A stretch of DNA of 64,000 bases from positions 949,867-1,013,866 of the forward strand of contig NZ_QKUF01000001.1 in NCBI RefSeq assembly GCF_003253565.1, read 5' to 3'. Below, piece after piece: positions 19,056 through 51,259 of this stretch; within the stretch, counting starts at the first letter, position 1, and each line of letters opens with the position of its first letter. This DNA comes from Thermosporothrix hazakensis. Its GTDB lineage: Bacteria > Chloroflexota > Ktedonobacteria > Ktedonobacterales > Ktedonobacteraceae. The translations under genes were made by a program, and so were the position numbers. The notes under the pieces are model-generated. The model was given only the letters and a program-made list of their open reading frames with translations, did no database searches and was not told the DNA's origin.

Positions 19056-19127
19056 ATGGATAAAATTACTCCGATTAATACCGGATCTATTACGTGTGAA
19101 GCAGGTGGAAAGGAGTCCATTAAATGA
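19056..19127 (+). CDS. Possible 23-residue peptide translationally coupled to the kinase
   Basis: An ATG at 19056 has AAGGA 10 nt upstream and opens a 23-codon frame (begins MDKITPINTGS, ends GGKESIK) whose stop overlaps the kinase start as ATGA at 19124-19127. The peptide is Ser/Thr-rich with one Cys. The frame also extends upstream without a stop to ~18912, but no better SD is seen there. It may be a leader for coupling, a small substrate peptide, or chance. Confidence 0.35.
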   Translation: MDKITPINTGSITCEAGGKESIK

Positions 19128-20398
19128 AATGTGAAAAAATCGAGGTGCTAGCAGATACCCCTATTTCCAAAGTAATTCAAATAGATTATAAAGGCGAACT
19201 CAGGGTTATAAAATACAACAAAGGGCCCCAATTATATGAAAGTCTGAAAATTTACATCCCCTCCAGAGGACATCACGTTGACAGGACCTATATGTATACC
19301 TTTTTCGACAATACAACACTGCTTGAGCGAGGAAAGGATTCAGACCCCGGCAATATCACTGCCGCTCCCGAATTAATCGGGCCTGATGCTAATACCCCTT
19401 CTACCTTACGCAACAAATTTCCCGGCAAGGAGTTCAAAATAAACCTTGTAGAGGATGACGGCAGATATACAGGAGAGCCGTTATATAACCGAGCAATAGA
19501 ACATGGAGATATTGCACTTTATAGTTTGCTAGATGGCTTAAAATTCAACAGAAAAAATGCTCCCATCTATATAGGCGTCGTCCAATTTTACGAAACAGAT
19601 ACTCACATATTACTTGGGAAACATATAGTTCATCCCGATTTCAACAAGTTAAACAATGATGGATATAGATATGCCGTTCTGATGCATTATATCCCAAAAG
19701 CCAACTGGCTCAATCACTACTTGAGTCAGGAAAGCTTTGTTTTCGATATGAGCAACCTCTCCATGCTCATTCATCAGATTGCTCGCCATCACCAAGGGCT
19801 TGATCCGGCTCCAACACGATTTGGTACAATCTGGCAACTTTATTCCAAATTTCAGTCTAATCTGGGCGCTCTGAGAAGCGCACATCTGCCTATAGATATT
19901 GTCAACCCCTCTTCTTTAAATCAAATTGCAGACACAATGGAAAAAGCCCTGCGAGTGTATAAGTCCTCTTTTGAAGAACGCCAAAAGAATGGGCAAATTC
20001 GGCGCTGTCATGGGGATCTCAAAGCAAATAACCTGTTTACTCAGAATAATTCTTCAGGTTTTCGGGTATATATTATCGATGCAATTGATTTTAATGAGGA
20101 CTTTTTCTACATCGATCTCCTCAGTGATCTCGCTATGTTACTGGTTGAGATCTTTTTTTATTATCCTTCATCTAACGAGCGAAGACATCATTGCATTCTT
20201 CAACTCATAGCTCAGTATTGTCAGGATAGTGGGGAAATTATGGAAAAAATATTACCCATAATTTTCTACTATCTGGTGGAAAAAGCACTCGTTCGTACAT
20301 ACACGAGCTATAGTTATGATCATCAATCCCCAGACGTAGTACATCGGTATTTTGACATCGCTCAATGGTATACAGGCAAACTTCATTTATATATATAA
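19124..20398 (+). CDS. APH/choline-kinase-fold phosphotransferase (COG2187-like)
   Basis: The 424-residue protein has the catalytic core of the aminoglycoside phosphotransferase superfamily: CHGDLKANNLF (catalytic loop with Asp and Asn, ~299-309) and IIDAIDFNEDFFYIDLLSDL (metal-binding Asp, ~324-343). The second block matches the COG2187 type, where the consensus reads IdcIEFnd...DvlsDlA. The N-terminal ~200 residues are unlike standard APH N-lobes and may bind a specific substrate. Base composition is clearly more AT-rich than the flanking metabolic genes, suggesting recent transfer. AAAGGAG precedes the ATG. The substrate is unknown and no resistance role should be assumed. Confidence 0.7.
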   Translation: MKCEKIEVLADTPISKVIQIDYKGELRVIKYNKGPQLYESLKIYIPSRGHHVDRTYMYTFFDNTTLLERGKDSDPGNITAAPELIGPDANTPSTLRNKFPGKEFKINLVEDDGRYTGEPLYNRAIEHGDIALYSLLDGLKFNRKNAPIYIGVVQFYETDTHILLGKHIVHPDFNKLNNDGYRYAVLMHYIPKANWLNHYLSQESFVFDMSNLSMLIHQIARHHQGLDPAPTRFGTIWQLYSKFQSNLGALRSAHLPIDIVNPSSLNQIADTMEKALRVYKSSFEERQKNGQIRRCHGDLKANNLFTQNNSSGFRVYIIDAIDFNEDFFYIDLLSDLAMLLVEIFFYYPSSNERRHHCILQLIAQYCQDSGEIMEKILPIIFYYLVEKALVRTYTSYSYDHQSPDVVHRYFDIAQWYTGKLHLYI

Positions 20399-20434: not shown

Positions 20435-22021
20435 TTACTCAAACCTCAAGCGGTCAGGAAAACGCAAAGAGTAATGCCCTCCATAATGATTAGCAATAAA
20501 ATCCACGCCACTGTGCTTTCGCAACTTCTTTCGCAAATGGTATAACCGTTGGGAGAGAGTTGAACGCTCTATCATTTTCCCCCAAACCTCTTTCATTAAT
20601 ACCTCGCTACTACAGCGCAGCGGATGCTCCATTAATACCTTGAGCAATCTGTATTCGAGCTCGGTTAATGAGAGCTGCTTTACTGACCGATTCTCCAGTG
20701 AAATACTCACACTGAAACTGGCAGTGCGTCCCAATTGTGTGGGATATTCACGGAACTGCTGCTGACGCAAGAAATGACAAAGCAGAGAACCTGGTAAATA
20801 AATGGGTTGGAAAGGATCGTAGCGCACAATGCCTTCATTGACTAAAATGTAGCGTATCTTATAATGCAGCGCCTGCCACTCGTGGGCAGAAAGCACCTCC
20901 TCTCGTTGTTTCAAGGTCAGAACAAAGTGAGCAAAGGCATCCTTCGCATCCTGCCCGCCGCTTGCCAGCGCTTCAGTAAGGCGTTTCCAGAGTCCTATAA
21001 GGAACGTTGCTACGCCGGCATTTACCTGCTCAACTAAATGCGCTCTACTTTCTGGCGGCACCTCTTTCCATTGGCCGTACATATCTGCATAAAGCTGCTT
21101 CAAATAAAAAAGCTGATAGCAGAACTGCTGTAAAAGATAGGGGTGAGATCCGGCTTGTTGTAAAATCCATTGCTGCTCTTGTAATGAGAATACCTCTTCT
21201 CCTCCTAAGCGCCGAAAAGCTTTGGCCCAAGCAGGACCAAAGCTATCAGCATCTTGAGCCAAAAAAGCCATAGCATCTTTTCTGGTAAAACACTGAAGTG
21301 GCATTGTATAAAAACGAGCAAGGTCGGCAGAGATATTTTCAAACTGGCCTTCAATATTCGCAAGAGGAAGACTTTCAATAGAAAGAATCACATTCAAGCA
21401 GGCAAACTCATCGATCAAATCAACCAGGATGCGAATAGCACCGCAATGGTTTAATAAAGCAATTCCTCGTTCCTGGGGTGATCTTGCTCCACTGCTCTCT
21501 AGCTCAGGGAATGTTATATCAGGTCGATCAAGCTTCTCAATCGAGTCCAACATCACAAAGTAGCGATCATTGGGGTATAAAAGATTCATCGTTCTCAAGA
21601 GATCCCGTATGTCTTGCACTTCTATACTCGTCGCATCGTTTGAAATATGGTGAATCTCAGACAAAGAGTTAAAACATTCTGTAACAAATGCAGGAAGCAT
21701 ATCCTGTACATGCTTGCATACTTCCAGAGGGGTTAAATCTATCTGCACAAAATGATATGTATCCAGAGAAAATAGATCCTGCAAAGAAGTAAGCTCTTCT
21801 TCGTGACGCCATGACCAGATATTCTCCGGCCTCCCTTGCAGATACCGAATCAGGGATGTTTTCCCGATACGAGGTGCTCCCGTTAAAATAATTGCGCTTT
21901 GTTGGGCAACAATCATTTTTTTGATATCGGTTCCTCTCCCTGATATCCTCCGTATCCGTCCTTCAGCACTACTAGAAAACGGATTCAGTAAGCCCAGCCA
22001 TGTCATGCTTTGATCTACCAT
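20435..22021 (-). CDS. ATPase with C-terminal OmpR/PhoB-type winged helix
   Basis: The 528-residue protein has an N-terminal P-loop NTPase: Walker A GAPRIGKTS at 48-56, Walker B FVMLD at 155-159, and a helical lid through ~430. It ends with a winged-helix DNA-binding domain (~437-528; LTELEYRLLKVLMEH...STLSQRLYHLRKKL...GGHYSLRF), the OmpR/PhoB arrangement. This is STAND/AAA-like: nucleotide-controlled switching coupled to DNA binding. It begins 16 nt after the RSH-ATPase fusion with a purine-rich SD (AAGGGTGAGAG), so the two are co-transcribed and probably functionally linked. A role as the transcriptional output of the fusion is an inference. Confidence 0.75.
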   Translation of the reverse strand: MVDQSMTWLGLLNPFSSSAEGRIRRISGRGTDIKKMIVAQQSAIILTGAPRIGKTSLIRYLQGRPENIWSWRHEEELTSLQDLFSLDTYHFVQIDLTPLEVCKHVQDMLPAFVTECFNSLSEIHHISNDATSIEVQDIRDLLRTMNLLYPNDRYFVMLDSIEKLDRPDITFPELESSGARSPQERGIALLNHCGAIRILVDLIDEFACLNVILSIESLPLANIEGQFENISADLARFYTMPLQCFTRKDAMAFLAQDADSFGPAWAKAFRRLGGEEVFSLQEQQWILQQAGSHPYLLQQFCYQLFYLKQLYADMYGQWKEVPPESRAHLVEQVNAGVATFLIGLWKRLTEALASGGQDAKDAFAHFVLTLKQREEVLSAHEWQALHYKIRYILVNEGIVRYDPFQPIYLPGSLLCHFLRQQQFREYPTQLGRTASFSVSISLENRSVKQLSLTELEYRLLKVLMEHPLRCSSEVLMKEVWGKMIERSTLSQRLYHLRKKLRKHSGVDFIANHYGGHYSLRFPDRLRFE

Positions 22022-22037: not shown

Positions 22038-25000
22038 TCAACGATAATTGAAGAACCAGCGATTTCGTGCCATCCAGCGACGCACCAACTCTATTTTAAA
22101 AGCATAATAAGGGTTTAAACTCCCTTTTTTAGAGATGTATTCATCTAATATCAGACCATTTCGTAAACGCTCAAGACGAGAACGAATGTCTAAAGGTGAA
22201 AGCGTAAGAAAACTGGCAAGTTGTTTTACTGTCACCGTCTCCCGTTTGTTCATTTCAGTCAATTCAACAATTGCTTCAAGAATAGTTGCCTCTTTGCTAT
22301 CCTGCAATTCGCGGCTGTAAAAAATAAAATTTTGTGTTGATTGAGCTCCAATAATATCTCGCACTACATATTCAATATCCTCAGCAACAACATAATTCTT
22401 TTCTGTTTCTACATTCAGATAGAAAATCAACTGCAAACCAAGTAATGAAAGATAATAAGGATTCCCTCCAGTTAAATGCATCATGTAACTCAAGGCCTGA
22501 GGAGCAAGCCGAACATGTTGCTCACGTAAAGGGTGAACCAATAACTGGCCAGCACTCTCTTGATCAAGAAACGAAACAGGCATTGATTGTGCAAAACTAA
22601 AGACATTCGCAAAATCATTTGAAGTCAACATGGTGTGCGCACGAGTAGGGAGAGCAATAAGCAAACTAAGCTGTGGGCAATCATCCATTAATTGTCGCCA
22701 GAGATCAAAGAAGTGAGAACTTAACCTTCCATTTTGATAGCTATCCAGCGCTCCCCCAAACTCATCCAGCACCAGGATAAAACGAGAAGCAGGGGCTTGT
22801 CGTGTACACTGCTGCACAAATTCTCGAAAAATGGTATACATATCCTTCTGATCAGACCAATCCAGTACGGGAGGAGCCAGATGAAAACAGCAAGAAAATG
22901 AACGAGCAATCTCATCAGCGATTCGTCGTAAAACCAGTTCATCAGCCCAACCAACAACATTTTGCAACGAATAGAATGTATACCAATGGGGGGGCATCAC
23001 ATAACGCTCTAAGAAATTTCTACATAATGATGTTTTTCCCGAACGACGAGGACCATACAAAAGAATAGCCTTCCCATATTCTGCATCACAAAGCTCCATT
23101 TTCAGACGCCCCATTTCCTTCCCCCGCCCCACAAACATCTTAGCAGTTGCTGGCCTGGAAATATCATACGGATTTTTCAAAACTCTATTTCGTTGTTCTA
23201 AGCCGCTATCAGAATTTTCATTCCTGGAGTGCCAGGTACCGCTCTCAACATGATTTTCATCAGCAGAGGAATTGCTTTGCAGGCGTTCCAAACGTTGTGC
23301 AACCACCTTTAAAGTGGCTTCCGTATCGATATTTACCCTTACTACCCCATCTACCGCCAATAACCTATTCCACACAATTAACGCTCCCTGATCGTCTGGA
23401 ACCTCCACTACCAACCAGATTTCAGCATTTCTCCACTTATTCACGGACCTTGCATTCATTCCTAGCAAAAGACCCGGGCACGCCAGCAATCGCTTTGTAA
23501 TATCATGGATTAGCCCCTGACGATCTTGAGCATAAACCACGAACGCAACTCTCAACGTTGAGTCAGAAAACACCCACTCCATGGGCACATATCTTGTCGG
23601 TCCTTTTCCCCCCACCCTCCGAATACAAGGACACAGCAGTGAATGCACTACAATGAACTTACTTCTCCGCCTACAGCCAACAATTTCTTGCGGATACCCT
23701 GGTTGACAGATATTGCAGAGACGCATAGGAAGGTGTTGCTTCTCATTAACAGCCCGTGGAATCCACACCTCAATACTGGACTGGAATGTATTGAGCGCCT
23801 CTCTCCTTTTGATAATCTGTAACGCAGCCCATTCAGGTGTATATGGAGCGTCTGACCCCATTCTGAAATTCTCTAAGTATCCCTGCCGCGTTCCCAGGTC
23901 ATACCGCTTCACCAGCCAAAGAAGCTCTTCATCTAGCTCCTCTGTTGAAAGCGTACAATGATAACGCTCCAACTCTCGAACAATTAATATGTATCCTCTG
24001 TATCGGTGCAACTGAGCCGTAAGCAAAGCACGCAGGTTGACAAGCGCTTTTTCTGTAATGGCGTATTTTCCTTCCAACCAATCATCTTGCACACGCACTT
24101 CTTTATCAGTGATAATCTCAACGACATCCCCGGCATCTAATTCACGGTACAGCGGCACACGGCGATTATTGACATAGGCACTTGCTGTATAATTTCCCAC
24201 CTGGGGGCCCATTTCGTATGCAAAATCGAGGACAGTAGCGCCTCTGGCAAGTGATAAAGGGTTATGCAGTTTGTCATAAACAACAACGGGCCGGGCATGA
24301 TGTTCAGATATATGGGTAGTATTTGTAAGAATGGCATGATGAATAGCATAGAAAGCTCGACCAATTGTACTGTTCCAGAACTGAGCGCCTTCTGGCAACC
24401 ACGCACTTGTATTTGTGGGGGTGGCTTCTGTTGTATAGAGACGATAACATTCAGGGTAAAGGCAGCCATAATAGATCACCGCCAACATAGGAACCGTGGC
24501 TATTTGTAATGCACAACTCACACATTCCTGACGCAGCCATTCTAGATCATGCCAATATGGTTGCTGACCATCAAGTATGAGATTATAAGCAAGCAGACTG
24601 TATCCATTAGGCTTTGGAGCAGCAATCTGGTCTGCCACTCTATCCTGTATCGTTCCGAGGAAATTGAGCGCACCAAAAGCAAGATAGCAATCTTTTACGG
24701 AGGGAACTATTATATGAAAAACGACAAGATCAAAACCTGTAAGCTTTACCTTATTGACAACAGAAGTATATACCTGCGTTTCTCTCCGTTTTAGCCCCGC
24801 TACGCCACAGGTAATCATCTCGATTGTAATTGGTTGCCCAACCATCTGTTGGTAATGGGCAATGAGTTTTCTTTGGATTGCTTCCAACTTTGACTGATCC
24901 CTATTCAGAATATGATTGTATCTCTCTTCATACTCCTTATATTCCTTATATCTAAGAAGATATTCCAGTACATCCTCTACCTTACGCTTCAAAGACCACA

Positions 25001-25523
25001 TCCCTAAATGAGTACAAATGTGAAGGAGGATTCGCCCGGTGCTCTCAATACGTGGTCGCCGCTTCTGATCGTCTCCAGGCCGCTGCTCGCTTTTGGACAG
25101 TTGCACTAACGACTGATAATGGATAGCAACCGCAATCAACAACGCTCCTAGATCACGATGGGGCAGAGAAAGGAGGGGCCCTAATTGCTCTTCTTCAATA
25201 GAACGAGAGTACAGCAGCGACTCTTTAAAGTGGCTCATCACCCGCTCTCGATCCAGAAGCTGCCGCCGCTTAATCAACTCCTCATCGTAGATACGCAGGT
25301 ATCCCGCTGCCACAACCTGCCAGGGCAACCCCCAGTTCTGTAACAGCTTCCCTACTTCCCGGGCATCATACCTGATCACATTCAGCACATAGGCATGGGC
25401 CGGACGAGGGCTTCCCACTGTCTCCCGAGCCAGCTCTTCGATCCACATAGCCCATTCAGCGGGTATTGTTGTAGGAACCGGTTTCCAGCATGCAAGCTCT
25501 GCCTGCAAACGAGTCTTTCCCAT
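22038..25523 (-). CDS. Degenerate RelA/SpoT homologue fused to AAA/STAND-type ATPase
   Basis: The 1161-residue protein follows the whole order of a long RSH protein. Residues 1-200 are helical and HD-like, with no HD dipeptide. Residues 205-350 form a synthetase-like fold: Asp265 in GFDLVVFHIIV and PKPNGY ending at Tyr308 are kept, but the ExQIRT motif reads ALQIAT, losing Glu and Arg. TGS is at ~410-475, a CC/zinc-type Cys domain at 602-636 (C603, C606, C617, C631, C633), and ACT at ~657-735. A linker leads into a P-loop ATPase: Walker A GPRRSGKTS at 824-832, Walker B FILVLDE at 915-921, and a C-terminal helical/winged region to 1161. (p)ppGpp turnover is probably lost and ligand or ribosome sensing kept. 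Start: ATG with AAAGGTG upstream. Confidence 0.8.
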   Translation of the reverse strand: MGKTRLQAELACWKPVPTTIPAEWAMWIEELARETVGSPRPAHAYVLNVIRYDAREVGKLLQNWGLPWQVVAAGYLRIYDEELIKRRQLLDRERVMSHFKESLLYSRSIEEEQLGPLLSLPHRDLGALLIAVAIHYQSLVQLSKSEQRPGDDQKRRPRIESTGRILLHICTHLGMWSLKRKVEDVLEYLLRYKEYKEYEERYNHILNRDQSKLEAIQRKLIAHYQQMVGQPITIEMITCGVAGLKRRETQVYTSVVNKVKLTGFDLVVFHIIVPSVKDCYLAFGALNFLGTIQDRVADQIAAPKPNGYSLLAYNLILDGQQPYWHDLEWLRQECVSCALQIATVPMLAVIYYGCLYPECYRLYTTEATPTNTSAWLPEGAQFWNSTIGRAFYAIHHAILTNTTHISEHHARPVVVYDKLHNPLSLARGATVLDFAYEMGPQVGNYTASAYVNNRRVPLYRELDAGDVVEIITDKEVRVQDDWLEGKYAITEKALVNLRALLTAQLHRYRGYILIVRELERYHCTLSTEELDEELLWLVKRYDLGTRQGYLENFRMGSDAPYTPEWAALQIIKRREALNTFQSSIEVWIPRAVNEKQHLPMRLCNICQPGYPQEIVGCRRRSKFIVVHSLLCPCIRRVGGKGPTRYVPMEWVFSDSTLRVAFVVYAQDRQGLIHDITKRLLACPGLLLGMNARSVNKWRNAEIWLVVEVPDDQGALIVWNRLLAVDGVVRVNIDTEATLKVVAQRLERLQSNSSADENHVESGTWHSRNENSDSGLEQRNRVLKNPYDISRPATAKMFVGRGKEMGRLKMELCDAEYGKAILLYGPRRSGKTSLCRNFLERYVMPPHWYTFYSLQNVVGWADELVLRRIADEIARSFSCCFHLAPPVLDWSDQKDMYTIFREFVQQCTRQAPASRFILVLDEFGGALDSYQNGRLSSHFFDLWRQLMDDCPQLSLLIALPTRAHTMLTSNDFANVFSFAQSMPVSFLDQESAGQLLVHPLREQHVRLAPQALSYMMHLTGGNPYYLSLLGLQLIFYLNVETEKNYVVAEDIEYVVRDIIGAQSTQNFIFYSRELQDSKEATILEAIVELTEMNKRETVTVKQLASFLTLSPLDIRSRLERLRNGLILDEYISKKGSLNPYYAFKIELVRRWMARNRWFFNYR

Positions 25524-25585
25524 CAGGAAGCACCTTTGCTCTTTTTGCTTGCCTCACAGTTTTACAAACCATATCCTATTTCGTA

Positions 25586-25614
25586 ATAATAATATGTAAA
25601 AATGCATAAGTCAA
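25586..25614 (-). promoter_or_regulatory. Promoter of the RSH-ATPase operon
   Basis: On the minus strand TTGACT (25614-25609), a 17-nt spacer and TATTAT (25591-25586) form a near-consensus promoter. Transcription would start about 57 nt before the ATG at 25523. Confidence 0.7.
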
Positions 25615-25715
25615 GTCTCTATATCACTTTGTTTAGGAATAAAAATAAAATAAAGAGATGAAAATAAAATTGTTTCTCTTTTGTCTATTATTCCAAAAAA
25701 TTACGTCAAAAGTTA

Positions 25716-25746
25716 TTGACATTTCCCAATAATTACTGCATATATT
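25716..25746 (+). promoter_or_regulatory. Promoter of the sigma-like gene
   Basis: TTGACA (25716-25721) is followed by CATATA (spacer 17) or TATATT (25741-25746, spacer 19). It is back to back with the RSH-ATPase promoter across a very AT-rich 100-nt stretch, so shared control of both units is possible. Confidence 0.55.
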
Positions 25747-25808
25747 ACTTAATATAAAAATTTCTGCTCTTTTTATAACTAACATCACAGGAAAGAAAGG
25801 GGTACAGT

Positions 25809-26486
25809 ATGACCTATCAGAAACCTCAAGTACCATCTGACTATAGCGCCCCTTCTCTTAACTCGGTTCTCGTAGAGCTAGAACCCGTAATTCGTGTGAT
25901 GCTGAAGCATGCCAACTGCTCACTGAATGACTGGGAACAGGACGAGATAGCGCAGTGCACGCTGTATAAGCTTGCCAGAGCCCTGGCAAGCCGCGAGATC
26001 AGCAATCTCCATGGATACCTCAAACGAACCATCCACAATGAGTTTGTCAGCTATCTCCGCAGCACCAGGCCCTGGCTCTCCCTCCATACCACAGAAGAAG
26101 GTGAACCCTGTACCGGAACACCACTCATCTCTTTGAGCCAGGGGTGGGACGATCCCGCCCTTGAATATGAACACCGAGCATCATTTCAGGAACTACTTGA
26201 CCTTGTTGTAGACGCCATCATGGAATTACCCCCCGTACAGCGGTATGCCACCATCTGCTACTTTAACGATATCGTTGATGATCGACATGTCCTGATCGCG
26301 TCTTTTCAACGATATAACCTGGATATCACGCCTTGCCGCTGGCCGCAAGAACGCGCAGATAAGCAGAAACTGCTTGCGTCATTCTATGCAGCACGCAGCA
26401 CACTTATTCGCCACCTTAGCGCAAATCCGCACTTTAGCTCAGACCATCCGTTCACGTGTTTTCATGTTCGTAGGCGAAGAAAATAG
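25809..26486 (+). CDS. Sigma-70-family-like (ECF-type) regulator
   Basis: In the 225-residue protein, residues ~45-90 resemble sigma region 2 (EIAQCTLYKLARAL, then LHGYLKRTIHNEFVSYLRS). Residues ~140-210 resemble region 4 (IMELPPVQRYATICYF, then a helix ending ARSTLIRHLS). Region 4 is degenerate, with an insertion in the DNA-binding helices, so it may not be a fully active sigma factor. AAAGGGG precedes the ATG. It is divergent from the RSH-ATPase operon with facing promoters. It could regulate that operon, but nothing in the sequence proves it. Confidence 0.6.
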   Translation: MTYQKPQVPSDYSAPSLNSVLVELEPVIRVMLKHANCSLNDWEQDEIAQCTLYKLARALASREISNLHGYLKRTIHNEFVSYLRSTRPWLSLHTTEEGEPCTGTPLISLSQGWDDPALEYEHRASFQELLDLVVDAIMELPPVQRYATICYFNDIVDDRHVLIASFQRYNLDITPCRWPQERADKQKLLASFYAARSTLIRHLSANPHFSSDHPFTCFHVRRRRK

Positions 26487-26549: not shown

Positions 26550-28160
26550 TCAGACAACAGGAAAGCGCTCAATCCTCTCCTGCTCTTCACGCGGTACATG
26601 GCGAGCTAGAATACGCTGCATTGCCAGACCGATACGTCGAATACCCTCTACAATCTCATCTTCTGAGGCGCTAGCAAAGCTCAAACGAATATGTTGATGG
26701 CCACCTCCATCAACATGGAATGGCTCACCCAGAACAAACGTAACCTGTTCTTGAATGGACTCTCGCAAGAGCGCTCGCGCCCGAATACAGCCCGGAAGAT
26801 GACACCAGAGATGAAAACCGCCATCCGGGACATGAATTCGCACAGGAACCGGCCAATAGCGCTTTATTGCATCAAGCATCAGATCACGTTTGTGGTGATA
26901 GAGCGCTCGCGCGGTTTCCAGATGTTTACTCAGTACATTTTGACGTAACATTTCGGATACAAGCCACTGCCCCAAAGCATTCGTATTCAGATCAAAAACC
27001 TGCTTGTGCAGGGAAAGCATCTCTATCAACGGTTCCGCTGCCGCCAGCCACGCAACCCGCAAACCGGGAGCCAGGATCTTTGAACAGGTACTCAGGTACA
27101 GCACATGGCCCCGCGTATCTAGCGCCTTCAAGGGCTGAGGCACATCATTCTCAAAATAGATCTCACCATAAGGGTCATCTTCCAGAATCGGTACCTGATA
27201 GCGCCGGGCCAGAGCCAATAGACGCTTACGCCGCTCAAGCGACATCACCACCCCGGTCGGATTCTGAAAGGTTGGCAACACATAGATCAGGCGCGGTTTC
27301 CGCCTGGCAAGCATCGCTTCCAGCAAATCAACACGCATTCCATCCTTATCGACCGGGATCCCGATAATCCGCGCACCCAATGCTCGAAAGGTCTGAATCG
27401 CTCCCAGATAAGTCGGTACCTCCACCACAACCTCATCTCCTGGATGCAAGAGAAAACGCCCGATCAAGCCGATTCCCTGCGTCGAACCGGACAACACCAG
27501 GATATGCTGAAAGTCAACCGGAACCCCACGCTTCCGCATGTGTGATGCCAGCGCACGCCGCAATGATTGCAATCCCTCAACCGGACAATACCCTAGTGCG
27601 CTTTGTCTCCCCTCAGCCAGCCTTTGACTCATAATGGACTGTATCAGTTCAGCCGGTAACATATCAGGTGGTGGGGTTGCTGAAGCCAACGAGATAATAT
27701 TTTCGCGCTCTCCCATTGAGGCAATATCGCTCAGGACGCGCGCCTGAGGGCCCTCTGACAGATCATCCATAGATGACAAACCAAAAAGCCAGGAAGGACT
27801 ATCATCAACAAAGGCTTCCTCATCCTCAAAGGCCTGAAAATAGGTTCGCTTAACCACTGTTCCACGACCAACATGTCCCTCTATCAGTCCCTCGGCAGCC
27901 AGTTCATTATAGGCGTTCATGATCGTCGTTCGATTGACATTCAGTTCCTGCGCTAGCGCCCTCTCAGTTGGCAAACGTGATCCCTCACCAAGCTCTCCCG
28001 AGAGGATCACTTCGCGAATCTGGTCACTGATCTGTTTATAGAGCGGCACACTGGAAGAACGCTCTAAATGAATATAAGTATGCAGCGGGACCACCACAGA
28101 TCGGGGCGTGCTCTGGTAGAGTGGGGGATGTTTCGCTTTTCGGATAGTTTTCTCTCGCAT
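26550..28160 (-). CDS. MocR-family transcriptional regulator (GntR HTH + aminotransferase fold)
   Basis: In the 536-residue fusion, residues ~25-100 are a GntR winged helix (SSVPLYKQISDQIREVILSG, RLPTERALAQELNVNRTTI), joined by a linker to a fold-type I aminotransferase domain (~155-525). The PLP lysine is visible in STCSKILAPGLR. MocR proteins use PLP or an aldimine as effector to regulate vitamin B6, amino-acid or polyamine genes. No pdxS/T or aminotransferase neighbour is present, so the target is unknown. The ATG at 28160 was chosen for AGGAGG 7 nt upstream; an upstream ATG at 28190 has no SD. Confidence 0.9.
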   Translation of the reverse strand: MREKTIRKAKHPPLYQSTPRSVVVPLHTYIHLERSSSVPLYKQISDQIREVILSGELGEGSRLPTERALAQELNVNRTTIMNAYNELAAEGLIEGHVGRGTVVKRTYFQAFEDEEAFVDDSPSWLFGLSSMDDLSEGPQARVLSDIASMGERENIISLASATPPPDMLPAELIQSIMSQRLAEGRQSALGYCPVEGLQSLRRALASHMRKRGVPVDFQHILVLSGSTQGIGLIGRFLLHPGDEVVVEVPTYLGAIQTFRALGARIIGIPVDKDGMRVDLLEAMLARRKPRLIYVLPTFQNPTGVVMSLERRKRLLALARRYQVPILEDDPYGEIYFENDVPQPLKALDTRGHVLYLSTCSKILAPGLRVAWLAAAEPLIEMLSLHKQVFDLNTNALGQWLVSEMLRQNVLSKHLETARALYHHKRDLMLDAIKRYWPVPVRIHVPDGGFHLWCHLPGCIRARALLRESIQEQVTFVLGEPFHVDGGGHQHIRLSFASASEDEIVEGIRRIGLAMQRILARHVPREEQERIERFPVV

Positions 28161-28240
28161 CTCTATTCCTCCTGCATTGGCTTCCTCCATTCACTGTAAA
28201 CTGTTCGCCCCCTATGTGACAAGGGCCAATTGACGTATTA

Positions 28241-36526: not shown

Positions 36527-36566
36527 AAAAAAACCCGTCAGAGTCCAGCTCTGGCGGGCTTTTTTC
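36527..36566 (+). terminator. Bidirectional terminator
   Basis: CCCGTCAGAG (36534-36543) pairs with CTCTGGCGGG (36549-36558, one G-T), flanked by an A-run on the left and a T-run on the right. It serves both the small membrane gene and the convergent BTAD gene. Confidence 0.9.
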
Positions 36567-38637
36567 AGGATGCCTCCCGCTTCCCCCGCTGCGTAAATGG
36601 GTTCTGTCCTCCTTTAAGCAGATGATAGGAAATCGTACACCATACTTCCTCTTCGTCCTGCTTATAGAGCCGGGACAGTGCCTCACCGGCCAGCCGATGA
36701 AGTGATGCCTGTCGCGCCGCCGAAAGCCGCTCATATAAACGCTTGCCAAACAATGGATGCGCAAAGCGATACAGCTCTTGCTCTCCCTGCTTCTCCACAA
36801 GTAAGATCCCGGCCTGAAGCGCTTCTTCGAGCATCTGTGATAGCCCCCCCTGTCCTTGCGTCATCAATGCGACAAGCTCAAATGGAAAAGGATGATCCAG
36901 TACCGCTACCTTCGAGAGCACCCGCCGGCACTGCTCGCTCAGTTTCTCAAGGCGCAGATCGACCGCCGCCGCGATAGTGCTTGGCAAAGAGCCAAACTTC
37001 AGCGTATAGAGAATCTCGTTTTCTCCCTGCTGCTGCTCCATCTCTTGAATGGCATGTATAAACTCGATCGCAAAAAAGGGATTCCCATGCGCGTACTCGA
37101 GAATAGAACGCTGAATTGCAGGAGAACAGCGCCGCAACAATCGACCTATCTGCTCAGACGGAAGCGGCTTCAGTTCCAGATGCCAGGCGCGCTGCTCTGC
37201 CTGCAAATCTCGAATGAGCATCTGTAGCCCATTCTCCTCCCCGTCTGTGAGCGGATTGCAAGTTCCCAGGAGCAAAACCGGCTGCAACCAGACGCGCCGC
37301 ACGATAGTTGCAAAGACCTCAATGCTGGCTCGATCAGCATAATGGAGATCATCAAAGACCAGCAGGATCGGCGCTTTCTGTCCTGCCAGATAGAGGCACT
37401 CAAGCAGTGTTTCGGTCAGGGAAAAGCGCTCACGGGCAACTCTGGCCGACCAGGAGGGAGCCGAGGAAAGTAACAGCCCCGAGAGCGTCTCTCGCAGCAC
37501 TCGCTCCATACCTTGAACTTGTTCCAGCCCGCTCAACTGCCGCAATACATCGATCCAGAGACGATAGGATACAGTTTGCTCCTGCTCATAGACTTTGTTC
37601 CAGAGGATAGCCCAACCCCGCTCGCTCAGCGCCCGACTGACCTCTTCTGCCAGTCGCGTCTTTCCAATGCCGGGCTCACCAGTGAGAAACAGTGAATGAG
37701 GGAAGCCCTCTTTGTCGCTCTGAAGAGCGTCTGCCTGTTCAAGAATACGCTGATACTCATATTCCCGGCCCACAAAATGACAACGCGTTCCTCGCGCCAC
37801 CGGCAAAGGTAAGCGCGGATGCACCGCTCCTATCTGGCCGCTACTTTGCAGTTGCTCATACAGGGCTCGTGTTTCTGGCAACGGTTCCGCCCCATAGAAT
37901 TTCCACAGCGTCGCTTCCAGACGTCGATAAGCAAGCAGTGCTTCTGTGCGGCTTCCCTGCAACGCCAGCACGCGCATTAGTCGGCAGGCCGCCGCTTCAT
38001 GCGCCGGATATGCCTGTAGCAGCTTCTCAAGCAGAGCAAGCGCCTGCACAAAGGCCTCTTTCTCCATATAGCTATCTGCCAGAGCCAGCAACACACCGAA
38101 CCATTTCCGCTGCAAGGTCTCGCGCCGCACGGTGACCCATGAAGCGATCTGTTCCCCCTGGAGAAAATCACCCCGATACAGGGCCATTGCCTCCTCAAGC
38201 AGGCTCTCTCGTTCGGATGGCTCCTGTGTCTGTAACGCCTGCTGAAGTAGCATCTCAAAATGATCGGCATCAAGCCATACTCTCTGCTGTGAGGCAAAGC
38301 GAAAAATATCATGTTCCAGACGCAGCAAGCTGGAATTGGCAGGCCGGGCAAGATCCGGCTCTAGAAGTTGGCGCAAGCTATGCACCGTGATATTCAAACG
38401 ATTGGCCGCCGTCTCCAGATCGGTTTCAGGCCAGAGCGCCTCCATTACTTGCTCTCGTCCAAGCATACGAGAAGGCACGCTCAGCAAGCACCCAAGAAAA
38501 GTACGAATCCGTCGCTGTTGCCATGCTGCTTCATGTACCTCCTGCCACTCTGATCTATTCCATCGTTCCAGACGACACTGTCCCAGTAGATAGATACGAA
38601 TTACGGGAGTATGCCCCTCCAGGCGCTCTCTATCCAT
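36565..38637 (-). CDS. BTAD-domain / AAA ATPase transcriptional regulator (SARP/AfsR-like)
   Basis: The 690-residue protein has an N-terminal OmpR-like winged helix (~10-100; RIRTFLGCLLSVPSRMLGREQVMEALWP style), a bacterial transcriptional activation domain of helical repeats (~125-265), and an AAA/NACHT-like ATPase (Walker A TGEPGIGKT at 319-327, Walker B ILLVFDD at 424-430) with a lid. It stops soon after the ATPase, without the long TPR tail and LuxR HTH of larger LAL regulators. GAGGAGGG precedes the ATG. It is divergent from the ComDE-like pair, and regulation of that pair is plausible but unproved. Confidence 0.88.
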   Translation of the reverse strand: MDRERLEGHTPVIRIYLLGQCRLERWNRSEWQEVHEAAWQQRRIRTFLGCLLSVPSRMLGREQVMEALWPETDLETAANRLNITVHSLRQLLEPDLARPANSSLLRLEHDIFRFASQQRVWLDADHFEMLLQQALQTQEPSERESLLEEAMALYRGDFLQGEQIASWVTVRRETLQRKWFGVLLALADSYMEKEAFVQALALLEKLLQAYPAHEAAACRLMRVLALQGSRTEALLAYRRLEATLWKFYGAEPLPETRALYEQLQSSGQIGAVHPRLPLPVARGTRCHFVGREYEYQRILEQADALQSDKEGFPHSLFLTGEPGIGKTRLAEEVSRALSERGWAILWNKVYEQEQTVSYRLWIDVLRQLSGLEQVQGMERVLRETLSGLLLSSAPSWSARVARERFSLTETLLECLYLAGQKAPILLVFDDLHYADRASIEVFATIVRRVWLQPVLLLGTCNPLTDGEENGLQMLIRDLQAEQRAWHLELKPLPSEQIGRLLRRCSPAIQRSILEYAHGNPFFAIEFIHAIQEMEQQQGENEILYTLKFGSLPSTIAAAVDLRLEKLSEQCRRVLSKVAVLDHPFPFELVALMTQGQGGLSQMLEEALQAGILLVEKQGEQELYRFAHPLFGKRLYERLSAARQASLHRLAGEALSRLYKQDEEEVWCTISYHLLKGGQNPFTQRGKREAS

Positions 38638-42202: not shown

Positions 42203-42401
42203 AGCTATGGGCTGTTCTACGATGTTTCTTGTTGTATCTTGAAAACAGTCAGGAGTGCACAGACTGCTCCGGTTTTCCCCGTACAGTTCAGCACGTTTCT
42301 GCGTTTTTCACCCTCGTTATCGTCGTCAAAACAAACAGCTATGCCAGTCTGGCGTAGCTTACAACAAAACGCCTTTGCGAAGTGTCACATTGGAGGTCGC
42401 A

Positions 42402-44783
42402 ATGAGCACAATCCCGAGGCAACTGGGGAAATACGAGCTGCAACAGCGTATCGGACAGGGCACTATTGGCGAGGTTTGGAAGGGGAGAGATCTTCAGCTC
42501 CAGCGTGACATCGCCATAAAAATTCTCCACACCGATTTACAACAGACCGATCCCCGGTTCTTTACGCATTTTCGAGAGAATGGACAAGCTCTGATAACGT
42601 TGCAGCACGCCAATCTGGTGCCAGTCACTGATCTAAACGTGTATCGCTCGGTAGAGACAAACACTCTTTTTGCCTATTTGGTGATGGACTATATCCCGGG
42701 CATGACGCTCCATGCCTATCTGGGAAAAACATCACATCGTGGCATCTTTCCGCCTGTGCCCCAGATTGTCTATTTATTCGCCTGTATTGGTTCTGCGCTT
42801 GATTACGCGCATCGGCGCGGCATTGCGCATGGAAATATTACACCGCGAAATATTTTACTTCACCAACAGAATACAACACATTTTGAGGCAGGTGAACCCT
42901 ATGTAGCAGATCTAGGCCTGGTTCGCTTGCTCAATATGCCTATTAATGCTCATACACCCTTTTATCTTTCACCCGAGCAAGCACGTGGAGAAGCTCCGAG
43001 CGCACGCAGTGACATCTATGCCCTGGGAGCGCTTCTCTATGAGATCTGCACCGGAGTACAGCCCTTCCGTGGAGAAACGCCGACCACGGTTCTCATGCAA
43101 CATCTACACACACTGCCCACACCGCCAAACCTGATTAACCCGAACATTCCCGGGGCTCTTTCAGAGGTCATCCTTCGCGCCATGTCCAAAGATCCGGCCT
43201 CGCGTTACCCAAAGGCTGCCTATTTGGCTGCCGCCATCGCTGAAGCCTGTTCACTGCGGCCAATCTATCCAGTAACCAGAACCGGCGAGATTGAGGCACT
43301 GCCTGCGCCCCCAACAGCCAACGAGGGGGGAACACTACTCGGCGTCTCACAGCCGCTCTTCCGACCCTCAACGACACGAACAGGGTCAACACCTTCTCTG
43401 CCACCACTACCCGCGGCACAGATGCCATCACAGACACTTCCGGTTGAAAAGGCGCCACAGCAAACGCCTCCTCCGGGATCACTCCCGGCGGCCAGTATTT
43501 CCATGCAGCCAACGGCCATCAATCCTGTGCTCAAAAACGAACCCGAGCCAACAAAAGTCGTTAGTGCCAGAACACCCACCACAACCCCGGCTGCGCCGCA
43601 GGAACAACTGATGCAGCAATCACCGGTCCTGCCGCCTCCCGTGCCCACGCAGGAACAGCGGACCTCATCACTGCATCCCGTCCCTGCTCACCAGAAGCAA
43701 CGCGCTCGCACAAATCCTCTGTACCTTATTGCGGCAGTGCTTGTCGTGTTGCTGCTGCTTGGCGGAGGTGCAGCCAGTCTGCTCTTTCTGAATCGTGGTG
43801 GTCAAGCGCCAGCCTCGGCAGCGCTCGTCGGACAGGTCTTTTTTCAGGATAATGCACTTGGGCATAATAATGTTATTCGGATTCAACTGAATAACATTGA
43901 AGCTCCACCAGATGGGATGGGCTATTTCGCCTGGCTCCAGATGCAGGATATGACACAGCCTGAGCTTCCTCTTGGTCAGATCACATTCAAGGAGAAACAG
44001 GGCTCTTTGCTCTATCCCGGCGACAAAAAGAACACGAACTTGCTCTCGCTCTCACCGCGTGGTGTGATCATCACGCTTGAGAACGCTGACCATCCGCCAC
44101 AACAACCGGGCAATCGAGAGGTGTTCCGAGGGCTCTTCGATCAAGCAGCCTTCCCCTCTATTAAGAATATTCTCTACGCAACGCCCGGCCTGTCAGAGAA
44201 GCAGAGCGCTATAACCAGTATGCGAGAAGCGCTTCAATCGATCAATGATAAGGCAGGCAGTATTGTCGACTCGCTTCAGAACACCGGTGATTATCAACTG
44301 GCATATCGACAGGCGGTGCGCATCATTGAGCTGATTGATGGCTCCACGATGGCCCACAAAAGCGGAGATCTCCCTGCAAAACAAGCAAGCCTGCTACCGA
44401 CCGAGACCGGCATTCTGACGATTGATAATACGCAGGGCTATCTCGATTTGCTCTCCACGCAGATCACCCAACTGAAAAGCGTCGCAAGCTCAGATCAGGA
44501 GTTAATGAAACATGCAAGCAACGTGGAAAACGCCATCACGAACCTGAAAGACTGGGTCCAGAAGATGCGAACCTACGCAACCCAGCTTATTAAGGCATCG
44601 GATATCAAGAGCCCCGAGATGATTAAGGTTGCTCTTCAGTTGAAACAGCTCGCGGCTGACGCTTATGCCGGCCGAACCATTCCACCCAATCAGGGCCCAC
44701 AGCCGATTCTGGGTTCAGCCGGAGCCTATCAGGCGTATGTCGAGAGCCAGTATCTGGCAACCCTCACCCTGCAAAAAGTCTAG
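42402..44783 (+). CDS. Membrane Ser/Thr kinase-like protein lacking the catalytic Asp (pseudokinase)
   Basis: In the 793-residue protein, residues ~10-270 have the Hanks kinase fold: glycine loop GQGTIGEV (18-25), Lys40 in IAIKIL and VADLG (Asp170, DFG-like). The HRD motif is HGN at 143-145, so the catalytic Asp is replaced by Asn. A Pro/Thr-rich linker (~290-475), one membrane helix (~488-512) and an external domain (~515-793) follow. The kept Lys and DLG Asp suggest ATP binding without normal phosphotransfer. GGAGG lies 5 nt before the ATG; the frame is open to 42255 but without an SD. Confidence 0.82.
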   Translation: MSTIPRQLGKYELQQRIGQGTIGEVWKGRDLQLQRDIAIKILHTDLQQTDPRFFTHFRENGQALITLQHANLVPVTDLNVYRSVETNTLFAYLVMDYIPGMTLHAYLGKTSHRGIFPPVPQIVYLFACIGSALDYAHRRGIAHGNITPRNILLHQQNTTHFEAGEPYVADLGLVRLLNMPINAHTPFYLSPEQARGEAPSARSDIYALGALLYEICTGVQPFRGETPTTVLMQHLHTLPTPPNLINPNIPGALSEVILRAMSKDPASRYPKAAYLAAAIAEACSLRPIYPVTRTGEIEALPAPPTANEGGTLLGVSQPLFRPSTTRTGSTPSLPPLPAAQMPSQTLPVEKAPQQTPPPGSLPAASISMQPTAINPVLKNEPEPTKVVSARTPTTTPAAPQEQLMQQSPVLPPPVPTQEQRTSSLHPVPAHQKQRARTNPLYLIAAVLVVLLLLGGGAASLLFLNRGGQAPASAALVGQVFFQDNALGHNNVIRIQLNNIEAPPDGMGYFAWLQMQDMTQPELPLGQITFKEKQGSLLYPGDKKNTNLLSLSPRGVIITLENADHPPQQPGNREVFRGLFDQAAFPSIKNILYATPGLSEKQSAITSMREALQSINDKAGSIVDSLQNTGDYQLAYRQAVRIIELIDGSTMAHKSGDLPAKQASLLPTETGILTIDNTQGYLDLLSTQITQLKSVASSDQELMKHASNVENAITNLKDWVQKMRTYATQLIKASDIKSPEMIKVALQLKQLAADAYAGRTIPPNQGPQPILGSAGAYQAYVESQYLATLTLQKV

Positions 44784-49229: not shown

Positions 49230-49339
49230 TCAGAGACAAAGCGCGTAACCCGAGTGCCGACCAACCGTAGTAAGATGTAGAGGGAAGGAATCTGACCCCG
49301 ACCATATCGAAAGCAATCATAGAAGTGGGAGACAATTCT

Positions 49340-51259
49340 TTGGCCTACTGCCTCAATCCACGCGGGGGACACGAGAACCCGGATACAGCTATCAGTTGCT
49401 CACGTTGTGGTTTCCTGGTCCACGGCGCTCATATCGGCACCTATCAGGTGCTCTCATTTATTGGGGCCGGGAGCTATGGCTATGTCTATAAGATCCGCGA
49501 GTCGGCTCCACTCAGCCGTGTACTGGCCCTGAAAGTCCTGCGTCTGGATCAGTTTACAGCCAAATCCAGAGCGAACTTCTTTCAGGAGGCTCGACGGATT
49601 GCGGCCATGCATCATCCAAATATTCTACCGGTCTATAACTTTGGCCAGCTAGAGGATAGCGAACAACCCTATCTTGTCACTGACTATGCCCCCCGAACCA
49701 TTCTGGACCTGTTCCGTAACAGTAATGGCGCTCCCCGTCTTGCTTTCGCCGAAGAGCTTGTTCCCTATGTGCAGCAAACCGCAGACGCGCTTCAATATGT
49801 ACATAATAGCGGAATGGTGCATCAGGACGTCAAACCGGGTAATCTGCTCATCGGGCGCAATGGACAGGTACTCCTCTCCGATTTCGGCACAACGCTCCAT
49901 CTCGGCACTCAGACACATGCCTCCCTGGGCGAAGTCACTGGAACCGCCGCGTATATGCCCCCGGAACAGTGGCAGGGCACGCCACGACGCGACTCGGATC
50001 AATACGCTCTCGCCATCTGCTGCTATGAGCTCCTGACGGGGCGAACACCATTTGTCCATAAAGGGATTGAAGAAATGTGGCTGGCCCACGTCCATACCGC
50101 GCCTCCCCCACCACAGCAATGGAATCCGCGCATTCCGGTTGAGGTCTCCGCTGTGTTGCAGCGAGCGATGGCAAAAGATTACCGCCAGCGCTATAGCAGC
50201 GTCAGTTTGTTCGCTCGCGCCTATACCGAGGCGGTTGAAACAGCGCTGCTCCGCTATGTTTGTCGTCATTGTGGGCAACAGAATCGCAGTGGCGCTCAAC
50301 GCTGCGCCTTCTGCGGCACCGAATATGATAACCGCCGCTGTCCCTACTGTGAGACGCCGGTTCGCTTCGGTCAGCGCTGCTGCTCCACCTGTGGCCGCCT
50401 GACTATTCCTTCAGCACTGGCACTCTATAGCCCACTGGCAGGAGTCAGCCTGAACCAGGGCCGCTATATCATCAAACACATGCTCAGGCGCTCGGAAGAA
50501 TCACGCTCAATGGTGGCAATTGCTTTTGATGAGCGAACGCGGCAGAAAGTCATCCTCAAACGGTGGGAGTGCGCCGACACCCCCTTAGCACAACGGGCCA
50601 AAGATGTCGCGCATTTCGATAGAGTGACCGAACCCCTCACGCGCCTGCAACATCCGTTGGTACCTCGGGTCCTACAGCGCTTTGCCGAGGGCCAGCACTA
50701 CTATCTGGTGATGAACTATATTGATGGGGAAAGCATTGAGGAACGCCTGCTGAAATTGCTGCGTCCGATCCCTGAACAGGACGCCATTCAGTATATGTTC
50801 TCGATCTTAAATATTCTGATCGCACTGGAAAAGCAGACACCTCCTCTGCGGCACTATGATATCTCGCCTTCTAACATCATTATCGAGAAACAGCGCAATC
50901 GAGCCATGCTCACAGGCTTTCAGGTGCCACTTCCGCCCTCGATTCTGGCAGCTCATCCCGGAGGAGGCCCCCGCCGCACCACGCGCAAACTGGCTATCTC
51001 CCCCTATCTGCCAATTCAGGACAAGCCATTCGATCAACGAACCTGCATCTTTGCTCTGGCCGCGACTATGCATCATGCAGTAACCAACATCGCGCCGCCA
51101 CACTACCCAACCTACCCACCGGCGCGCATCCTGAATAAAGCAATCTCGCCAGCGTTTGAAGCAATTCTCAGTAAGGCGCTGGCCGAAGACCCGGGCGTGC
51201 GCTATCAGACCTATGAGCAACTCAAGGCGAGTCTGCAAGCCCTGGTAACCAAAAGGTAA
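49340..51259 (+). CDS. Ser/Thr protein kinase with zinc ribbons and a second degenerate kinase domain
   Basis: In the 639-residue protein, an N-terminal zinc-ribbon-like segment (C4, C20, C23) leads into a complete Hanks kinase (~34-300): IGAGSYGYVYK, Lys65, HQDVKPGN (161-168) and DFG (181-183). Three close zinc ribbons follow (~308-352, CRHCG, CAFCG, CPYC, CSTCG). A second kinase-like domain (~375-635) keeps HYDISPSNI (505-513) but has LTGF in place of DFG, so it may bind without phosphorylating. The TTG at 49340 has GTGGGAGA 7 nt upstream; a GTG at 49325 is the alternative. No membrane helix. Confidence 0.88.
   Translation: MAYCLNPRGGHENPDTAISCSRCGFLVHGAHIGTYQVLSFIGAGSYGYVYKIRESAPLSRVLALKVLRLDQFTAKSRANFFQEARRIAAMHHPNILPVYNFGQLEDSEQPYLVTDYAPRTILDLFRNSNGAPRLAFAEELVPYVQQTADALQYVHNSGMVHQDVKPGNLLIGRNGQVLLSDFGTTLHLGTQTHASLGEVTGTAAYMPPEQWQGTPRRDSDQYALAICCYELLTGRTPFVHKGIEEMWLAHVHTAPPPPQQWNPRIPVEVSAVLQRAMAKDYRQRYSSVSLFARAYTEAVETALLRYVCRHCGQQNRSGAQRCAFCGTEYDNRRCPYCETPVRFGQRCCSTCGRLTIPSALALYSPLAGVSLNQGRYIIKHMLRRSEESRSMVAIAFDERTRQKVILKRWECADTPLAQRAKDVAHFDRVTEPLTRLQHPLVPRVLQRFAEGQHYYLVMNYIDGESIEERLLKLLRPIPEQDAIQYMFSILNILIALEKQTPPLRHYDISPSNIIIEKQRNRAMLTGFQVPLPPSILAAHPGGGPRRTTRKLAISPYLPIQDKPFDQRTCIFALAATMHHAVTNIAPPHYPTYPPARILNKAISPAFEAILSKALAEDPGVRYQTYEQLKASLQALVTKR

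Follow-up and report, generated by a model that had tools for sequence, protein, structure and literature searches.

A catalytically degenerate long RSH fused to an ATPase, and a candidate two-protein STAND-type switch in Ktedonobacteraceae

Results

The window, a 64,000-nucleotide stretch of the Thermosporothrix hazakensis genome, carries on its minus strand a gene (22038–25523) that starts with ATG and encodes a 1161-residue protein, in which a degenerate long RSH is fused to a P-loop ATPase. Only 16 nt downstream on the same strand lies the gene for a 528-residue AAA ATPase partner (20435–22021) with the motifs GAPRIGKTS (Walker A) and GSHPYLL and a C-terminal OmpR/PhoB-type winged helix, matched in Pfam as Trans_reg_C at residues 448–518 (20468–20680, minus strand). 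Convergent with it is a plus-strand gene (19124–20398) for a 424-residue APH-fold kinase-like protein with HGDLKxNN and IDFN motifs. On the other side, an ECF-sigma-like gene (25809–26486, plus strand; 225 residues, Sigma70_r2) is divergent from the fusion gene, and beyond it stands a MocR/PdxR-type regulator (26550–28190, minus strand), a neighbour at 6 of the 10 compared loci that is not clearly part of the system. The original prediction, which concerned the fusion gene, made no mention of this operon with its AAA-winged-helix protein, kinase-like gene and divergent sigma-like gene.

HHalign comparison of the clade profile with ordinary long RSHs aligned residues 53–735 with a probability of 100 and an E-value of 2.7e-54, running through HD, SYNTH, TGS, HEL, ZFD and ACT and bearing out the full long-RSH layout that had been proposed. 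All on the minus strand, the regions are an HD-like (pseudo-hydrolase) region (residues 1–235; 24819–25523), a SYNTH-like region (236–361; 24441–24818), a TGS domain (about 413–478; 24090–24287), a helical, HEL-like region placed by fold prediction and profile alignment (about 479–595; 23739–24089), a zinc-finger domain, ZFD (about 596–650; 23574–23738), and an ACT/RRM domain (about 651–740; 23304–23573). Pfam recognised TGS (7.8e-12), with ACT_4 (1.4e-4) and RelA_SpoT (0.006) both below cut-off, and NCBIfam spoT_relA (TIGR00691) matched at E=1.8e-35, although its score of 122 bits falls short of the cut-off, 499. Sequence matches in the PDB were RelA, SpoT and Rel. The predicted fold of the RSH part, with pLDDT mostly 75–97, best matched RelA (5iqr, 1.8e-27), full-length SpoT (7qpr) and RelSeq with pppGpp (24io); an RSH fold is thus predicted before residue 740, in a test that is not independent because the alignment fed to it consisted of RSHs.

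Both active sites appear to be lost. The HD dipeptide is missing and ExQIRT is replaced by ALQIAT (residues 338–343), just as first read from the window protein, and the catalytic residues are gone across the clade. The HDxxED hydrolase site is absent, together with ADRLHN, from 8/8 aligned members of the fusion's own clade (clade I) and broken in 2/2 members of its sister clade II. The synthetase Glu of ExQIRT is gone in every full-length member, 8 from clade I and both from clade II; the SYNTH-like region of clade I has also lost the Arg of QIRT and the ATP loop GRxKxxYSI, and all full-length members of both clades lack this loop. No full-length member of either clade retains all catalytic residues, as would be expected of an active synthetase, and an ordinary RSH was rejected because of these losses.

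What is kept is selective. In the SYNTH-like region of clade I, D265, D298, K304 and N306 are conserved in 8/8 members and Y308 in 6/8, and the fusion keeps the catalytic Asp of SYNTH. RelSeq Asn306 and Lys304 contact pppGpp (PMC13299517), and by alignment the Lys304 and Asn306 kept in clade I are guanine-side residues. The best-kept RSH domains are TGS (13/19 canonical columns) and ZFD (5/7). The zinc ligands C603, C606, H627 and C631 are present in 8/8 members with the spacing CxxC..H..C instead of the usual CC..H..C; the "Cys-domain" of the original prediction corresponds to the RSH zinc finger. In E. coli RelA, the TGS residue H432 mediates recognition of uncharged tRNA, and H432E abolishes activation (PMC13376610). 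This position is Asp, Gly or Asn in 8/8 aligned clade I members, Gly in the window protein, while clade II retains His. The earlier statement that the kept parts are those contacting the ribosome and deacylated tRNA is not supported for clade I, and the idea of tRNA sensing is weakened, since it is the His reading tRNA ends that has been replaced.

The attached P-loop ATPase, whose Walker motifs had been described as intact, occupies residues about 784–1045 (22389–23174, minus strand; end approximate) and contains Walker A GPRRSGKTS (824–832), Walker B LVLDEFGG (917–924) and GGNPYY (1019–1024), with G829, K830, D920, E921, G1020, P1022 and Y1023 invariant in 9 aligned members. Pfam gave AAA_16 at 1.3e-8 (above cut-off), nSTAND1 at 1.5e-7 and ATPase_2 at 4.6e-6. 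In bits, nSTAND1 reached 31.8 (cut-off 27.1) and ATPase_2 27.0, below its cut-off of 33.2, in the window protein; ATPase_2 passed its cut-off in clade II. The STAND label rests on the nSTAND1/ATPase_2 profile scores and on distant PDB matches to 2qen and 2fna. A single-sequence fold of this part was uninformative (pLDDT 42), and a viral scan with the ATPase as query yielded no confirmed match. The remaining residues, about 1046–1161 (22041–22388, minus strand), form a helical region that is likely a winged helix, with a boundary drawn from the alignment and from how proteins of the ATPase family are usually laid out; Pfam matched no HTH family in the fusion polypeptide.

A survey of homologues for the same fusion found eight orthologues in other genomes (39–47% identical, one a contig-cut stub) and the less degenerate, two-member sister clade II. 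Both clades were found only within Ktedonobacteraceae, a family of soil bacteria, in several genera. One search for relatives in genome contigs found none, another gave ordinary RSHs among the 80 loci listed, and tblastn against plasmids and phages gave partial matches only, none reaching 80% coverage of the query. The fusion gene, which has these orthologues and is under strong purifying selection, is real and not a chance product. Its dN/dS is 0.015–0.16 in every domain, which argues that it is not decaying, and the overall value within one genus is about 0.08; orthologues from several genera keep their frames open, and synteny is conserved. The RSH tree places clades I and II on one side at 82/70. 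Two independent fusions were considered and not favoured: the ATPase tree parts the clades, yet a single clade is not rejected (AU p=0.486), and one origin is favoured because the partner and the sigma-like gene are common to both. The window's own genome also encodes separate RSH genes with intact motifs.

The gene cluster around the fusion is conserved in both clades. Full-length partner occurs in exactly those genomes with a near-complete fusion, always adjacent, and in no genome without it; judged by this distribution, the partner is obligatory for the fusion. Close homologues of the kinase-like protein occur only in genomes holding the fusion's own clade.

In Pfam, the sigma-like protein matches sigma region 2 only. 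Most such proteins from the two clades form one group (83/77) that lies near STAND-linked ones. Of 28 loci with paralogues of this gene, 15 have a STAND gene in divergent orientation, compared with 0 of 313 control ORFs being STAND-like (p=7e-19). In this count, 4 of the 15 STAND loci had themselves been seeds of the search profile, and several are close copies of each other within a single genus. The STAND genes inspected beside these paralogues carry an N-terminal HTH; the fusion system, unlike such HTH-STAND regulators, has its DNA-binding domain on the separate 528-residue partner. The AT-rich divergent intergenic region (25524–25808) contains a putative promoter into the fusion gene, TTGACT-17-TATTAT at 25614–25586 on the minus strand, a consensus match only, with 3 such sites found against 1.4 expected. 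For a shared operator, the divergent intergenic regions offered only the 9-mer TTACATATT and its complement, unconvincing in AT-rich DNA.

Discussion

On balance, we favour the view that the fusion works with its AAA-winged-helix partner as a STAND-type transcription switch of two proteins, one that is specific to this lineage and uses a dead RSH as its sensor. The N-terminal 735 residues, a whole long RSH stripped of hydrolase and synthetase residues, would act as the sensor arm, in line with the sensor reading made at the outset. The RSH conformation, set by a ligand or a binding partner, would gate the C-terminal ATPase_2/nSTAND-type ATPase in an ATP-dependent manner; the ATPase would contact and signal to the co-encoded partner, the one with the DNA-binding domain, and the two may control the divergent promoter of the ECF-sigma-like gene and, through it, the regulon of that gene. 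At related loci, a single protein that combines an HTH, an NB-ARC NTPase and a WD40 or TPR sensor seems to play this role. The fusion and partner probably convert a cell signal into a gene-expression response. Since guanine-side pocket residues are among those kept, the ligand might be a guanine nucleotide or alarmone, a guess that we hold tentatively, at rather less than even chances. The fuller version, in which the dead RSH itself binds (p)ppGpp or a guanine nucleotide as a receptor, so that an alarmone enzyme has become an alarmone-gated STAND switch driving, with its partner, a dedicated sigma regulon, we regard as doubtful.

Three other readings each strike us as unlikely, and about equally so. 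Like RelA, the fusion could bind stalled ribosomes through TGS, ZFD and ACT as a sensor of starvation and deacylated tRNA, firing the ATPase; the good preservation of TGS and ZFD and the His retained in clade II fit this, but the H432 substitutions of clade I are mostly acidic, like H432E (PMC13376610), and the ZFD ligand spacing is altered. In a defence reading, a role that the original prediction called conceivable, a pseudo-RSH detecting a phage- or stress-induced change would let an abortive-infection STAND module shut the cell down. Multicellular bacteria do commonly have NTPase-centred conflict systems with varied domains, RelA and TGS among them (PMC7159879). However, no effector or toxin domain was recognised in the module, the matches from PADLOC were weak ones to PDC-S27 and PDC-S01 that did not extend beyond the ATPase, and the operon, conserved over several genera, looks regulatory with its DNA-binding and sigma-like parts. 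Finally, the dead RSH might be a decoy that complexes with the motif-intact RSHs of the same genome and tunes alarmone levels, its ATPase being a chaperone-like lever; the regulatory roles of pseudo-HD in RelA and pseudo-SYNTH in SpoT_Ab (PMC9974481) lend it some plausibility, yet it leaves the obligatory partner and the sigma-like/STAND arrangement unexplained.

That the protein still makes or hydrolyses alarmone by means of unusual residues is very improbable: the catalytic Asp of SYNTH survives, but Glu, the ATP loop and HDxxED are gone or broken in all full-length members, and in RelSeq E323Q alone, like D264G, abolishes synthesis (PMC13299517). A decaying pseudogene born of accidental fusion would account for the dead catalytic sites, but is ruled out by dN/dS, open frames and conserved synteny.

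RSHs are usually regarded as enzymes, and in the cases of pseudo-domains that we found in the literature, the pseudo-domain regulates an active domain that is still present. In the fusion, both sites of an entire long RSH are lost and the protein is held under strong selection, where the RSH apparently acts as the input to an ATPase. Should that input be an alarmone or guanine nucleotide, the stringent signal would have a direct path to a sigma factor, and the protein would be a natural experiment for telling RSH surfaces used in sensing from those used in catalysis. The sigma-like/STAND arrangement also gives a handle on the targets of some STAND proteins of the same bacteria.

The literature searched held no described RSH-ATPase fusion, in agreement with the original prediction, which knew of no described system with such a layout. 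Compared with long RSHs (Rel, RelA, SpoT), the fusion has the same domain order over residues 53–735. Single pseudo-domains have precedents in RelA (pseudo-HD) and SpoT_Ab (pseudo-SYNTH; PMC9974481), whereas the fusion has lost both active sites at once, bears a C-terminal ATPase and coexists with separate motif-intact RSHs. With ATPase_2/MNS-type STAND-like ATPases (PF01637, nSTAND1; 2qen, 2fna) it shares Walker A/B, GNPYY and a likely C-terminal winged helix; its nearest relatives within the same family have FG-GAP propeller/HEAT arms in the place of the pseudo-RSH. The HTH-NB-ARC-WD40/TPR STAND regulators of the same bacterial family likewise have a divergent ECF-sigma-like neighbour (the 15/28 paralogue loci), but unite DNA binding, NTPase and sensor in one protein, while the fusion system divides them between two and senses with an RSH. 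AfsR/SARP-type regulators (PMC10936776) share the principle of a NOD-type NTPase and TPR joined to a DNA-binding activator and differ in DNA-binding domain, NTPase clade and sensor, with no RSH. The conflict systems of multicellular bacteria (PMC7159879), like the fusion, combine RSH parts with NTPase-centred systems; there, RelA and TGS are reported as effector domains that belong to vWA components and generate nucleotides or bind RNA, whereas here a whole dead RSH sits on an ATPase with a transcription-factor-like partner.

Architecture of the fusion protein

The ORF at 22038-25523 (-), with an ATG start, encodes a 1161-aa protein in which Pfam and NCBIfam detect TGS, ACT, AAA_16, nSTAND1 and ATPase_2 domains, with a RelA/SpoT subfamily match below threshold; a sequence search of the PDB ranks RelA, SpoT and Rel first. 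The original prediction assigned it a long RelA/SpoT homologue (RSH) layout, and a profile of eight aligned clade I members (this protein included, with its orthologues) indeed aligns residues 53-735 with ordinary long RSHs (probability 100, E=2.7e-54). AlphaFold2 returned an RSH fold for this part, as had been anticipated, with pLDDT mostly 75-97 and lower between domains, and Foldseek with this model retrieved ribosome-bound RelA, full-length SpoT and RelSeq with pppGpp; this fold test depends on the RSH alignment supplied and is not independent. Walker A and Walker B, predicted to be intact, are both present in nine aligned ATPase halves together with a GNPYY-type motif. These motifs and the distant PDB relatives 2qen and 2fna identify this half, at the level of sequence, as an ATPase. 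No HTH match was found in the fusion itself.

The closest relative found of this ATPase is the C-terminal ATPase of proteins of about 1600 aa (loci L050:1472-6322, L051:3010-7956, L052:2249-7267, L054:2949-8042 and L056:7185-11975). Both of those scanned carry FG-GAP/propeller and HEAT repeats, and several have an nSTAND2 gene nearby in divergent orientation.

Catalytic losses and selection

The predicted loss of the HD dipeptide and of ExQIRT holds throughout clade I: HDxxED and ADRLHN are lost in 8/8 members, and the synthetase (SYNTH) region has lost the ATP loop GRxKxxYSI and the Arg following the catalytic Asp, along with the ExQIRT Glu and the QIRT Arg. In RelSeq, synthesis is abolished by D264G and by E323Q (PMC13299517). 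Columns conserved to at least 90% across HD-intact RSHs survive in clade I at 7/41 positions in HD, 14/30 in SYNTH, 13/19 in TGS and 5/7 in ZFD. Retained SYNTH residues are D265, D298, K304 and N306 (8/8) and Y308 (6/8).

Comparisons among three congeneric genomes gave dN/dS values of 0.10-0.13 for the HD-like, 0.06-0.09 for the SYNTH-like, 0.07-0.10 for the TGS, 0.05-0.08 for the helical/ZFD and 0.015-0.06 for the ACT region, compared to 0.03-0.06 for the ATPase, 0.08-0.09 for the C-terminal region and 0.12-0.16, the highest, for the linker. Such ratios indicate that the catalytically dead domains are under maintenance.

Distribution and origin

A survey of 29 genomes from 13 genera of the Ktedonobacteraceae recovered the fusion gene in eight genomes besides the window's own (39-47% identity), one copy being a 381-aa stub ended by a contig edge, and two further copies forming a sister clade II; catalytic residues are not all kept in the full-length homologues. 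Among the matches listed for 400 genomes drawn from the phylum, with the best two candidates per genome scored, no fusion lay outside the family. Clade II lacks the synthetase Glu and an intact HDxxED and keeps IRT and ADRLHN (ADRLHNL in one copy). Since Pfam recognises its copies as RSHs (HD_4 about 1e-21 and 3e-18, RelA_SpoT about 2e-19 and 5e-18, TGS), clade II bridges the degenerate clade I and true RSHs. The RSH tree places both clades on one side (support 82/70), the ATPase tree does not reject them as one clade (p=0.486), and the sigma-like proteins from their loci group together (83/77; one clade I member unplaced). We thus read the two clades as probably sharing a single origin.

The window's genome has separate motif-intact RSH genes besides the fusion. 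One is synthetase-type with a dead HD; the second (LLHDVVED) lies in two parts at contig edges, the end of contig C25 (L046) and the start of contig C53 (L047), with a short stretch common to both, so its split is an assembly break and not gene loss. At L046 and L060, two RSHs adjoin, one with dead HD and intact SYNTH and the other with intact HD, which resembles the sharing of tasks between RelA and SpoT, here outside Proteobacteria. Short RSHs of about 630 aa at L035:4658-6547 (-) and L036:4973-6880 (-) have intact HDxxED, an altered synthetase motif (EIRIYT / EIHIYT) and no ATPase, and a 634-aa RSH at L037:4996-6900 (-) has intact SYNTH motifs and no HD motif.

Conserved neighbours and sigma-like paralogues

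Sixteen nt downstream of the fusion gene, 20435-22021 (-) encodes a 528-aa partner with an AAA ATPase and an OmpR/PhoB-type winged helix. Full-length partner homologues are confined to exactly the nine genomes with near-complete fusions (ten copies), adjacent in all; none was seen in the tenth, which holds the contig-cut stub. On the far side of the partner lies a convergent APH-fold kinase gene (19124-20398 (+); HGDLKxNN, IDFN), with close homologues only in clade I genomes. Upstream of the fusion gene and divergent from it is a 225-aa ECF-sigma-like gene (25809-26486 (+)), frequently neighboured by a MocR-type gene. In clade II, one genome shows a partner homologue together with a sigma-like gene in divergent orientation; in the other genome the contig stops short of that point. 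The window also encodes a SARP/AfsR-like BTAD-AAA_16 regulator (36565-38637 (-)) and two protein kinases (42255-44783 and 49325-51259 (+)), the second with zinc ribbons.

Elsewhere in the family, a STAND-like protein is divergent from a sigma-like paralogue in 15/28 loci (L203, L206, L207, L210, L211, L215-L218, L220, L222-L225 and L231), whereas by the same profiles 0/313 control ORFs are STAND-like (Fisher p=7e-19). The profile had been seeded with four of these 15, and near-copies from a single genus are among them, which makes the effective n smaller, yet the excess remains large. By Pfam, the partners inspected are NB-ARC-TPR or WD40 proteins, and all fourteen whose N-termini were read begin with an HTH-like stretch. 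At L215:2276-5800 (-), a 1174-aa TIR-nSTAND1 protein adjoins the sigma-like gene, and at L226 and L227 two sigma-like copies face MerR-GAF proteins. Because related loci carry HTH-NTPase-sensor regulators divergently, the fusion occupies the position of such a regulator.

A candidate transcription switch

Architecture, losses, selection, pairing and the paralogous sigma-STAND arrangement can be read from the sequences themselves. As the most likely reading, and with moderate confidence, we propose that fusion and partner form a two-protein STAND-type transcription switch, in which the pseudo-RSH would be the sensor arm, the fused ATPase an ATP-driven switch contacting the partner, the partner an arm binding a putative DNA target, and the sigma-like gene the output. 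An alarmone or guanine nucleotide is a plausible ligand because the guanine-side residues are kept; Asn306 and Lys304 contact pppGpp in RelSeq (PMC13299517). Retention need not mean binding, since the pseudo-SYNTH of SpoT_Ab is purely regulatory without GDP binding (PMC9974481). The fuller reading, in which the dead RSH would be a direct (p)ppGpp/guanine-nucleotide receptor, gating a STAND switch that with its partner drives a dedicated sigma regulon, we consider less likely than not. The kept parts had also been taken for ribosome and deacylated-tRNA contacts, but a ribosome/tRNA reader is weakened by the TGS position that reads uncharged tRNA. In E. coli this is a His (H432), and the H432E variant is inactive (PMC13376610); clade II retains the His, and clade I carries Asp, Gly or Asn in its place. 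A defence system, likewise suggested originally, has nothing in its favour beyond the STAND-like parts.

As for the proposed transcription switch, the open-licence papers searched described no system in which a whole dead long RSH acts as sensor for a STAND-like ATPase paired with a transcription-factor-like protein, in keeping with the initial impression that no such layout had been described. The STAND regulators of related loci hold HTH, NTPase and sensor together, whereas the fusion has its DNA-binding domain on an obligatory partner; the component parts are already known, and their combination is what may be new.
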